This document shows positions 61 to 29,218 of a stretch of DNA of 32,110 bases, piece by piece. The notes under the pieces are model-generated. The model saw nothing but the letters and a program-made list of their open reading frames with translations. It was not told where the DNA came from and made no database searches. The position numbers were made by a program, and so were the translations under genes. Origin of the DNA: Blastopirellula marina (lineage in GTDB: Bacteria > Planctomycetota > Phycisphaerae > Sedimentisphaerales > UBA12454); NCBI GenBank assembly GCA_020721975.1, contig DYLR01000006.1, positions 1 to 32,110 on the forward strand. The letters run 5' to 3'. Numbering within the stretch: position 1 is the stretch's first letter; each line of letters begins with the position of its first letter.

Positions 61-85
61 TAGTTAGCCCCGCGATTTATTCGCG
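61..85. repeat. Dispersed palindrome-derived repeat, copy 1
   Basis: These 25 bases are identical to 21904-21928 downstream of pgk. In the second copy the sequence continues into a perfect hairpin (AGCCCCGCGA, loop TTTAT, TCGCGGGGCT). Here the right arm decays after TCGCG, so only part of the stem can form. It lies upstream of the gltX promoter. A dispersed repeat is seen directly; its function is unknown. Confidence 0.75.
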
Positions 86-21905: not shown

Positions 21906-21933
21906 GTTAGCCCCGCGATTTATTCGCGGGGCT
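21904..21933. repeat. Dispersed palindrome GCCCCGCGA/TCGCGGGGC, copy 2 (complete)
   Basis: AGCCCCGCGA (21909-21918), loop TTTAT and TCGCGGGGCT (21924-21933) make a perfect 10-bp stem. The first 25 bases of the repeat are identical to 61-85. It follows pgk by about 30 bases. It has no T-run, so it could be a REP-like element or a bidirectional RNA hairpin instead of a classical terminator. Confidence 0.8.
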
Positions 21934-24214: not shown

Positions 24215-25936
24215 ATGGCTATCAAACTTAAAATATTTCGGCGCAGCATAACGGCGAATATCATCAGTGTGCTGATAATAGCGGTAATAGCCGTGCTGTT
24301 CCTTTATCCGCTTGCACTGGCGGTAAAGACGGGCGTAATTGAAAACAGCAGGATTTCGTTTTACTGGCTCGGCAGGGTGCTCGGCAGTGAAATTCTGCTC
24401 AGGCAGTTGTGCAACAGTTTTCTTTTGGCGATATGTACAACACTTGCGGCTGTGGCTATTTCGATACCGACGGCAATAACAGCTACGAATTTCCGGTTTC
24501 GCGGCAAAAGCGTGCTTGGGACGCTGATTCTGTTGCCGCTGATTCTGCCGCCTTTTGTGGGCGGATTGTCAATTAAGCGGCTGCTGGGACAATTCGGAGT
24601 TCTCAATATTCTGCTGGACAAGCTCGGCATTATTGACATCAGTGCCGGTCTGCCGCCGGACTGGCTGGGAAGCGGCTTTATTGGCGTGGTGATTTTGCAG
24701 ACGCTGCATTTGTTTCCAATTACATATCTTAATACGTGTGCGGCGCTGGCGAATCTTGACCCTGCGTATGTTCAGGCGGGACGAAATTTAGGCGCAGGGC
24801 CGATACGCAATTTTTTTGAGATAACACTGCCGCTGATAAGACCCGGAATTTTTGCGGGAGCATCAATTGTTTTTATCTGGTCATTCACAGATATCGGCAC
24901 CGCGGCAATAGTGGGCTATGACGATTTGGCAGCGATTACGATTTTCAAAGAGATTGCGAAGGCAGATGTATCGCCTTTGACGTACAGTCTGGTACTAATA
25001 CTTCTGGCGGCGTCTTGCGGTTTTTACTGTGCAGGCAGAATTATGGCAGGCGCAGGCGAATACTGCGGCTCGACGCGAGCGTCGGTGGCGTTTGAACCTG
25101 GAAAATTCGGAAAGGCTGCAACTGCGGCTGTGTGGCTGCTGTTCGGTACGGTGATATTTGCGGCGGTTTTGCCGCACATCGGCGTTGTAGTTACTGCCGT
25201 AAGCGATAAATGGGTAAGGACAATTCTGCCGGAAAAATATACGTTCAGACACCTGGCCTATGTATTCACAAAAGCTGAAATCCGCAGCAGCCTGATGAAC
25301 AGCCTCAAATATGCGTCGGTTTCAACGCTTATTGATTTGATAATCGGCTCGATAGTTGCCTGGCTGATAGTGCGAAGCAGACCTGTTGCGGGGCGGCTGC
25401 TGGACGGGCTGGTAATGCTGCCGCTGGCAGTGCCGGGAATTATCCTTGCGGCGGGATATGTTGTAATGACCGCACCAGGCACAAAATTTGAAACTATCGG
25501 GCCGCTGCGCAATCCTTTCGGCATACTGGTTATTGCTTACGCAATGAGGAGGATGCCTTTTTTTGTGCGGAGTATCTCGGCGGGACTTATGCAGCTGCCT
25601 GAATCGCTGGAAGAGGCGGCAAGAAATCTTGGCGCATCAAAATTTATGACTATAATGCGAATTACGACGCCGCTGCTTTTGGCTAATATTACGGCAGCGG
25701 CAGTTCTGACTTTTGCATTTGCTATGCTCGAAGTGAGCGATTCTCTCGTGCTTGCACAACTGCAGCAGGATTATCCGCTTACAAAGCAGATATATGTACA
25801 GGCCACCAGCGGCAATACTGATGCCTTGAATATCGCGTCGGCTTTGGGAGTTTACGGGATGGCGTTTCTGGGCGGTGCAATGGCAATTGCTTCGCTGATG
25901 CTGGGCAAAAAACTCGGTGCAATATTCAGAGCGTAA
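24215..25936 (+). CDS. ABC transporter permease, two fused domains (FbpB/ThiP type)
   Basis: Inner-membrane channel of the importer. The 573 residues consist of two homologous halves of about six membrane segments each. Each half carries an EAA loop that contacts the ATPase: AGRNLGAGPIRNFFEITLPLIRPGI in the first half and EEAARNLGASKFMTIMRITTPLLL in the second. This single-chain arrangement is typical of iron(III) and thiamine importers. The gene starts 58 bases after the lipoprotein gene, with no obvious ribosome binding site. The ATPase gene is displaced 385 bases downstream by repeats. Confidence 0.92.
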   Translation: MAIKLKIFRRSITANIISVLIIAVIAVLFLYPLALAVKTGVIENSRISFYWLGRVLGSEILLRQLCNSFLLAICTTLAAVAISIPTAITATNFRFRGKSVLGTLILLPLILPPFVGGLSIKRLLGQFGVLNILLDKLGIIDISAGLPPDWLGSGFIGVVILQTLHLFPITYLNTCAALANLDPAYVQAGRNLGAGPIRNFFEITLPLIRPGIFAGASIVFIWSFTDIGTAAIVGYDDLAAITIFKEIAKADVSPLTYSLVLILLAASCGFYCAGRIMAGAGEYCGSTRASVAFEPGKFGKAATAAVWLLFGTVIFAAVLPHIGVVVTAVSDKWVRTILPEKYTFRHLAYVFTKAEIRSSLMNSLKYASVSTLIDLIIGSIVAWLIVRSRPVAGRLLDGLVMLPLAVPGIILAAGYVVMTAPGTKFETIGPLRNPFGILVIAYAMRRMPFFVRSISAGLMQLPESLEEAARNLGASKFMTIMRITTPLLLANITAAAVLTFAFAMLEVSDSLVLAQLQQDYPLTKQIYVQATSGNTDALNIASALGVYGMAFLGGAMAIASLMLGKKLGAIFRA

Positions 25937-25957
25937 CTATACCCTATACCCTAATAC
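25936..25957. repeat. GGGTATAG-type short repeat cluster, copy 3 (minus orientation)
   Basis: CTATACCCTATACCCTAATA directly after the permease stop. Its reverse complement matches the clusters at 4716-4740 and 21884-21905. Confidence 0.5.
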
Positions 25958-25995
25958 TACAATGCTACTTGTAATATGGAAACGAAACAGACTAA

Positions 25996-26152
25996 AAATC
26001 CGAAGCACGAAATCCGAAATCCAAAACAAATTCAAAATTCCAAATCAAAATAACCAAAACAAAAACTCCATTGTTTTAGGTTTTTGTTTTGAACATTTTA
26101 GTTTTGAATATTCGATATTGTTTCGGATTTTGATATTCGGATTTCGGATTTA
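25996..26152. repeat. 155-bp near-palindromic heptad-repeat element
   Basis: The left arm (25996-26075, starting AAATCCGAAGCACGAAATCC) and the reverse complement of the right arm (26079-26152, starting AAATCCGAAATCCGAATATC) are closely similar over their whole lengths. Transcribed, the region would fold into one long A/T-rich hairpin with a small central loop. The outer left 40 bases match 4781-4820 in reverse orientation at about 38 positions. The arms resemble those flanking the four-helix-bundle gene. This looks like a coding-free (MITE-like) form of the same family. It lies between permease and ATPase genes. Confidence 0.75.
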
Positions 26153-26184
26153 AATCCTTATATTATAAGAAATTAGATTAGAGA

Positions 26185-26275
26185 CTCTAACAAAATGAAT
26201 TTGTCTTCTGTGGCACGGCCATCCTGGCCGTGATTCACGGGCGCCAAGCCCGTGCCACGATTCATTTTGTTAGAG
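26185..26275. repeat. 91-bp cloverleaf-type inverted-repeat element
   Basis: The outer arms, CTCTAACAAAATGAAT (26185-26200) and ATTCATTTTGTTAGAG (26260-26275), are perfect 16-bp inverted repeats. Inside are two adjacent hairpins, each with a 7-bp stem and a 5-base loop: CACGGCC/GGCCGTG (26214-26232) and CACGGGC/GCCCGTG (26236-26254). An alternative inner stem pairs GTGGCACGG (26210-26218) with CCGTGCCAC (26250-26258). No coding capacity. It lies 47 bases before the ATPase gene. Confidence 0.85.
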
Positions 26276-26321
26276 GCTTTTACAATAGCTAAAGGCAATA
26301 TAGCGTAGTAGAACTAACTAT

Positions 26322-27395
26322 ATGACTAAAGTCGAGGTAAAAAATATCAGCAAGGTATATGCCGGCAGGACAAGCGTCAAAGCCCTTGATAATGTCAATC
26401 TGGCCATCCGGCCGGGCGAGCTGTTTTTGCTGCTTGGGCCCAGCGGCTGCGGCAAAACCACCCTTTTGCGCATCATTGCAGGCCTTATAACGCCCACCAG
26501 CGGAACAGTGAGCTTTAACGGCAAAGATATTACCGATATGCCTGTCGAAAAACGCGATTGTGCAATGGTGTTTCAGAATTATGCACTCTGGCCGCACATG
26601 ACCGTAGATGCGAATGTTCGGTTCGGGCCGAAAATGAAGAAATTTAGTCGGCAGCGGCAGGATGCGATAGTCGGCAGGGTGCTTGAACTTGTGGGAATGA
26701 CAGGCCTTGCCAAAAGAAAACCAAACGAACTTTCCGGCGGCCAGCAGCAGCGGGTTGCTCTTGCCAGAGCGCTTGCGGCTGAACCGGCGTGCCTGCTTTT
26801 TGACGAGCCTTTGAGTAATCTTGACGCACAATTGAGAATACAGATGCGTATGGAACTTCGCAGGCTTGTCAAGGCGAATAATACCACGGCTATATATGTA
26901 ACTCACGACCAGAAAGAGGCTCTTTCAATGGCGGACCGAATAGCGGTGATGAATGCCGGCAGAATCTCGCAGGTTGCCGAACCTCAGGAAATTTATTACA
27001 GACCGGCAAACCGCTTTGTGGCCGATTTCATCGGACAGGCCAATCTCATAGACGGCATTGTAAAATATACGACCGGCGGAAATATAATTGAGACCGGTAT
27101 TTGTAATATTGTTCCGCAGAATTGTCTGCTGCCTGCGGGTACAAAAGCAACGTGCTGCATCAGGCCTGAAAGACTGAAAATTTCGCCGTTTGCGGCTGCG
27201 GGCGAAAAGTGTGGATTTGAAACTGCCGCCAGGATTGACAAAATCGAATTTCTTGGGGAAACCTGTCAGTATTATCTTTCAGCAAAGAATATTTCCCTGA
27301 TTGCCACAGATGTCGGATTTCAGCGAGGGCTTTGTCCCGGAATGGAAGTTAAAATATCGGCTCACAGCGATGATATAGTTGTTCTGGCGGAATAA
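26322..27395 (+). CDS. ABC transporter ATP-binding protein (FbpC/PotA type)
   Basis: Energises the importer encoded upstream. Walker A is GPSGCGKTT from residue 39. The Q-loop reads VFQNYALWPHM, the signature LSGGQQQRVALARAL starts at 137, Walker B LLFDEPLSNLDAQLR at 158, and the switch His is in YVTHDQ. The C-terminal third is a TOBE-type regulatory domain, including CCIRPERLKI. At 357 residues it is normal. The ATG at 26322 has no clear ribosome binding site. The gene is separated from its permease by repeats, so it may be transcribed separately. It ends one base from the convergent aminotransferase gene, leaving no room for a terminator. Confidence 0.94.
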   Translation: MTKVEVKNISKVYAGRTSVKALDNVNLAIRPGELFLLLGPSGCGKTTLLRIIAGLITPTSGTVSFNGKDITDMPVEKRDCAMVFQNYALWPHMTVDANVRFGPKMKKFSRQRQDAIVGRVLELVGMTGLAKRKPNELSGGQQQRVALARALAAEPACLLFDEPLSNLDAQLRIQMRMELRRLVKANNTTAIYVTHDQKEALSMADRIAVMNAGRISQVAEPQEIYYRPANRFVADFIGQANLIDGIVKYTTGGNIIETGICNIVPQNCLLPAGTKATCCIRPERLKISPFAAAGEKCGFETAARIDKIEFLGETCQYYLSAKNISLIATDVGFQRGLCPGMEVKISAHSDDIVVLAE

Positions 27396-29107: not shown

Positions 29108-29218
29108 TCCTTACAAATTATTAGTTGAACCCCTGGGTCGTAAGTGTCCGGTGTTGTCAGCCGGGAACTATTTGGTAACGCTCCTTACAAATTATTAGTT
29201 GAACCCCTGGGTCGTAAG
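29108..29218 (+). repeat. Two identical 37-bp direct repeats separated by 37 bp
   Basis: The sequence starting TCCTTACAAATTATTAGTTG and ending CCTGGGTCGTAAG occurs at 29108-29144 and again at 29182-29218 without a mismatch; flanking bases differ. The intervening 37 bases are unique. Each repeat has complementary ends (CTTAC/GTAAG), so it can close a stem-loop. The geometry is that of a minimal CRISPR (two repeats, one spacer), but no cas genes are in the window. The position in the rpmF leader, right after its promoter, suits a duplicated regulatory RNA element better. Confidence 0.85.

Follow-up and report, generated by a model that had tools for sequence, protein, structure and literature searches.

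Between two ABC transporter genes in the 32,110-nucleotide stretch of DNA that was analysed, here called the window, lies an element that on the evidence of its sequence is very probably a 99-bp MITE with IS5-type terminal inverted repeats (TIRs), GAGNCTCTAACAAAATGA, a 3-bp TWA target duplication and a REPIN in its interior. As the REPIN is found inside the MITE, one repeat appears to have spread by riding on the other. The features that identify the MITE are its ends, the target duplication, empty sites, the dispersal of the copies, and a matching autonomous element in a relative. In the initial annotation the element was proposed to be either of the REP/MITE type or a structured RNA. REP and MITE are both present, one nested in the other, while the structured RNA is unsupported, given the lack of an Rfam match, the dispersed insertions with duplicated targets, and the empty sites.

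Structure and Setting of the Element

The outer arms CTCTAACAAAATGAAT (26185-26200) and ATTCATTTTGTTAGAG (26260-26275) are perfect complements of 16 bp each. They enclose two hairpins, CACGGCC-ATCCT-GGCCGTG and CACGGGC-GCCAA-GCCCGTG, both with a 7-bp stem and a 5-base loop, as had been described; the first can form one extra pair. Four basal GTGG/CCAC pairs (26210-26213 with 26255-26258), overlooked earlier, close the three-way junction that had been thought possible. The 91 bp originally given is right for the span of the inverted repeat, but the element itself extends from 26181 to 26279. Its left TIR, GAGACTCTAACAAAATGAAT (26181-26200, plus strand), is followed by a spacer, TTGTCTTC (26201-26208), and by the 52-bp REPIN core (26209-26260, plus strand). 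As read from the sequence, the core consists of REP 1, the GTGG-tagged hairpin GTGGCACGGCCATCCTGGCCGTG (26210-26232, plus strand), and REP 2, the GTGG-tagged hairpin GTGGCACGGGCTTGGCGCCCGTG (26236-26258, minus strand). Copy alignment and TIR comparison place the right TIR, which reads AAGCCTCTAACAAAATGAAT on the minus strand, at 26260-26279. The cloverleaf fold is thus the sum of two parts, the outer one being the TIR stem and the inner one the REP hairpins.

The arms constitute the only exact 16-bp inverted repeat in the window with a spacer of at most 100 bp. No such repeat was found in 50 first-order Markov sequences, which rules out that the arms are a chance inverted repeat. The RNA fold of the element region has an energy of -53.1 kcal/mol (z -7.65), and none of 200 shuffled sequences was equally stable; the z-scores are -6.95 for the RNA of the opposite strand and -10.1 for the DNA fold of the 99-bp element. 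The symmetry is therefore beyond chance, as had been claimed. It was also correct that no gene lies inside, as no ORF of at least 80 amino acids overlaps the element. An intrinsic terminator was not found at the element on the sense strand, and an Rfam covariance-model scan of the window gave no match.

The element is located where the initial annotation put it, between the genes encoding a two-domain ABC permease (24215-25936) and an ABC ATPase (26322-27395), the latter starting 42 bp past the element. The best models for both proteins are 2-aminoethylphosphonate/polyamine-type transporters, in both cases below the curated cut-offs, and the element probably lies inside a transporter operon. 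The immediate host is an older, dispersed AT-rich and roughly palindromic repeat (25955-26310, plus strand) with the ends TACTACAACGCTAT and ATAGCGTAGTA, which is interrupted by 26181-26282 and recurs many times in the genome, in full or in part. Since the MITE sits inside one copy of this older repeat, there are three nested levels, with the REPIN within the MITE and the MITE within the repeat. Elsewhere in the window, two exact 37-bp direct repeats (29108-29144 and 29182-29218) are separated by a 37-bp spacer, and no further degenerate copy was found within the window. This layout resembles a minimal two-repeat CRISPR-type array.

Copies and Empty Sites in the Genome

The genome (G000) is a MAG of 1.65 Mb in 120 contigs with a completeness of about 89%. 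The element is present five times without a single difference over the 91 bp, on contigs C8, C20 (the window copy), C35, C54, and C118, and C49 carries a diverged copy. A sixth locus (C47, 6039-6090) contains the central 52 bp alone at 100% identity, so that five of the six exact REPINs are carried in the MITE. The genome-wide search for the hairpin pair and the arms that had been suggested thus returned five identical composites, and both the REPIN and the arms were also found separately. Alignment of the five copies shows that the conservation spans from GAGACTC to GAGGCTT and is followed by a 3-bp word. The words are TAA, TTA, TTA, TAA, and TTA, and match on both sides at all five loci. Ten paralogous copies of the AT-rich host repeat lack the element, and each is continuous across a single TTA. 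This fixes the element as 26181-26279 and the duplicated TTA as 26178-26180 and 26280-26282. No stop-to-stop frame of at least 100 codons overlaps the element at three of the five loci, while an overlapping frame is present at C54 and C8. The genome therefore contains multiple dispersed copies without coding capacity, with a TWA target-site duplication and with empty sites, as expected of a MITE.

The Arms Are Ends of an IS5-Family Element

Of 148 related genomes, 57 contain the arm pattern with TWA. It often forms inverted pairs with a spacing of about 40 to 200 bp and the same TWA word at both arms; the reversed control pattern gave almost no matches. In one of these genomes (G118:C299) a 906-bp autonomous element has the same ends, GAGCCTCTAACRAAATGA, and TTA on both sides. 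Its transposase is encoded by two overlapping frames and matches Pfam DDE_Tnp_1, DUF4096, and NCBIfam IS5_3. The common ends and the TWA duplication of this IS5_3 element identify the arms as IS5-family terminal inverted repeats, and the MITE thus has TIRs in common with an autonomous IS. Elements that are more distantly related have the ends GGCACTCTAACAAAAC, and two of these are flanked by TTA duplications. An IS5_3 transposase was not found in the MAG itself (about 89% complete), and the transposase partner is therefore inferred from the relative. A cognate transposase in the same genome is not strictly required of a MITE.

The TIRs also occur in other arrangements. An arm-only element of 38 bp flanked by TTA/TTA is found at G000:C50. 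Arms (TWAAAGCCTCTAACAAAATGA) that stand alone and lack a clear partner are seen on five contigs of the MAG (C82, C86, C101, C104, and C115) and on two of G026 (C46 and C86), several of them apparently directly after a stop codon. These may be decayed MITEs that had landed on TAA stop codons. In six genomes (G079, G066, G139, G128, G117, and G026; L153-L155 and L164-L169), long-palindrome MITEs of 160-200 bp are present in high copy number. Their TIRs are the same, but they enclose a different structured interior. They have an ACGATTC subterminal motif in common with the window element.

The Core Is a REPIN

The core is composed of two hairpins in opposite orientation, facing outward (tail to tail), each preceded by the conserved tetranucleotide GTGG. 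It exists as an independent repeat, as armless copies are found at C47 in the same MAG and in many related genomes, and several further genera of the order have them too. REPINs elsewhere are free-living repeats, and their movement is ascribed to RAYT (Y1) transposases acting on single-stranded DNA. By the definition of Bertels and Rainey (PMC3116915) the core is a REPIN, and the GTAG tag has been reported to vary to GTGG in Opitutus terrae (PMC3733652).

Two Y1/RAYT-like transposase genes are present in the MAG, one of which matches a REP-associated model below the cut-off. The initial annotation had suggested a check for a REP-associated tyrosine transposase; candidate genes are there, but a REP of the window type was not found beside either of the two, and neither is linked to the core as a cognate RAYT would be. 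The Y1 gene at G000:C59 (L088:1592-2187) is flanked by hairpins of the CCCCCGGC/GTTAGCCCC type in a REPtron-like layout. A repeat of the same type as these flanking hairpins, GTTAGCCCCGCGATTTATTCG, occurs twice in the window (63-84 and 21906-21927).

Composites in Related Genomes

Composites of the same layout, 94-105 bp long with the duplications included, could be aligned from the families f1, f6, and f7, and a covariance-model search gave further copies, at least 24 of them in G069 alone. The combination of MITE and REPIN is thus old and common to at least three families of the order Sedimentisphaerales. In the set of 39 aligned composites, TWA is present on both sides of 26, and in 25 of these the two 3-mers are identical (binomial p ~4e-7, a value that is indicative, as the copies are related).

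Covariation was analysed in the same 39 composites. The two REP stems are paired in 91% and 98% of the cells and display strong compensatory changes, such as UA 19 / GC 18 and GC 19 / AU 18. Two-sided changes in the TIR stem are sporadic, and the arms are conserved mainly in sequence. The signal was lost when the stem partners were slid against each other; the shuffle control gives no probability, because the aligned rows are related. The covariance analysis that had been proposed thus finds the compensatory changes concentrated in the two REP hairpins. Their presence between homologous composites, together with the five identical genome copies, also disposes of the outcome that had been named as speaking against a mobile or structured element, namely a single copy without compensatory changes. 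The pattern fits two constraints, which would be the sequence of the arms for transposase binding and the fold for the REP hairpins.

Mode of Spread and Alternative Explanations

An IS5-family DDE transposase acting in trans would cut and insert the MITE. The REPIN would have entered the interior of the MITE once, in the ancestor of this composite lineage, possibly through a RAYT reaction with a preference for hairpin DNA, and would since have been copied together with it. We infer this order of events, with the REPIN entering a MITE, rather than one where TIRs formed around a REPIN.

A 3-bp target duplication is unexpected for the single-strand mechanism of HUH/Y1 enzymes. This duplication and the IS ends rule out a RAYT as the mover of the whole composite, and the mobility that the sequence shows for the composite points to an IS5-type transposase acting on the arms. 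It is consequently most improbable that the element is a pure REP/BIME unit moved by a RAYT, where the arms would be part of the REPIN or a preferred target palindrome. Such a unit would account for the GTGG-tagged inverted REP pair with its REPIN layout (PMC3116915), for the Y1 transposases in the genome, and for the REP dimers seen inside palindromes (Di Nocera 2013, PMC3733652). However, the arms are found without the window-type REP, with other REP families, and bounding an IS with a DDE transposase, while the REPIN is found without the arms. The autonomous IS with the common arms and the empty sites contradict this explanation further. An integron attC site was also considered, prompted by the CTCTAAC/GTTAGAG sequences. 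The attC motif is GTTRRRY and its copies are expected in arrays; GTTAGAG deviates from the motif and the copies are dispersed, and this candidate was rejected.

The very stable RNA fold of both strands, the compensatory changes in the hairpins, and the ATPase start 42 bp downstream could all be taken to indicate a conserved riboswitch-like or attenuator RNA that controls the ATPase gene, with a fold selected for its RNA function. The genes next to the identical copies are unrelated to one another, and there are target duplications as well as empty sites; this speaks strongly against such a function, as do the absence of an Rfam family and of a terminator signature on the sense strand. Moreover, the arms are conserved mainly in sequence, as transposase sites are, and REP hairpins recognised as folded single-stranded DNA predict compensatory changes equally well. 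A regulatory RNA is accordingly very hard to reconcile with the data. Somewhat less remote, although still unlikely, is that an IS-derived MITE has become domesticated, so that the hairpins of the window copy now tune or stabilise the permease/ATPase mRNA. The copy sits inside a probable transporter operon, its RNA hairpin has an energy of about -49 kcal/mol, and it is known that both REPs and MITEs can influence how stable an mRNA is (PMC3733652). On the other hand, it looks recent, because it is identical to four copies elsewhere. Any effect on the neighbouring transporter mRNA would be secondary to the spread of the MITE with its REPIN, and is hypothetical.

Relation to Known Repeats

The element resembles IS5-family MITEs (IS5_3 type, TWA) in having the TIRs of an autonomous IS5-family element and a 3-bp TWA duplication, and in being noncoding and dispersed. 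It differs in that its interior is an inverted REP pair and not a deleted transposase gene. PIF/Harbinger transposons have a TWA preference and are akin to IS5. They comprise small TIR elements with a 3-bp duplication (PMC2213677), and these Tourist-like MITEs are eukaryotic; the likeness lies in the small size, the TIRs, and the 3-bp duplication. The core has the inverted GTGG-tagged doublet, the extragenic location, and the hairpin or clover folds of REPINs (Bertels and Rainey 2011, PMC3116915), but most of its copies in its own genome sit within a DDE-type MITE, and the surroundings of the two Y1 genes yielded no cognate RAYT. REP dimers in the middle of recurring palindromes have been described from A. 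variabilis, H. neapolitanus, and T. roseum (Di Nocera 2013, PMC3733652). The present element is similar in that a REP dimer is central in a longer recurrent palindrome. That study did not recognise the palindromes as the ends of transposons. In the present case, by contrast, they consist of IS5-type TIRs for which target duplications, empty sites, and an autonomous partner are seen, and which are found with several REP types. Some of the earlier, unexplained palindromes may therefore be MITE ends, which is a likely explanation for the REP dimers within them. No description of REPINs inside IS5-type MITEs was found in the open-access literature, and the MITE-REPIN chimera is a new variant on the known MITE and REPIN types.

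It has long been asked how REPs spread, since a RAYT gene is as a rule present only once and the transposition of REPs has proved difficult to observe. In the element described here, a REP pair was multiplied as the interior of a MITE of the classical cut-and-paste kind, and the target duplications and the empty sites are clean. The case also calls for caution, as a nested transposon can mimic a structured RNA when judged by fold and covariation alone.

Other Repeats in the Same TIR Frame

The TIR frame also carries other hairpin repeats. A repeat of the GTCATTCCCGCG type is found within it at G000:C38 and in G091 and G143, one of the GTAGGGGCAGG type in G112, and a GTCATTCTGAG-like one in G056. 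Longer palindromes are found within it in G079, G066, G139, and others, and some interiors (C52) are not REP-like. The GTCATTCCCGCG repeat is mostly free, with 176 copies in G091, and 3 of 30 copies sampled from G091, G112, and G143 lie inside TIR pairs. It is conceivable, though somewhat doubtful, that the IS5-type MITE frames of Sedimentisphaerales are a recurrent vehicle for REPs, and that the GTGGCACGG, GTCATTCCCGCG, GTAGGGGCAGG, and GTCATTCTGAG-like repeats entered them independently, perhaps via a RAYT preference for hairpin DNA, and were then amplified by the DDE transposase. If this is true, REPs would have a second, RAYT-independent route of spreading.

In several composites and in one free hairpin (L096:333-464, L096:3615-3746, L101:1358-1488, L102, and L107), the loop of a REP hairpin is interrupted by a unit of the form GCCTGCCCTGAGC(N5-7)CGAATGG, which suggests that hairpin loops are insertion targets.
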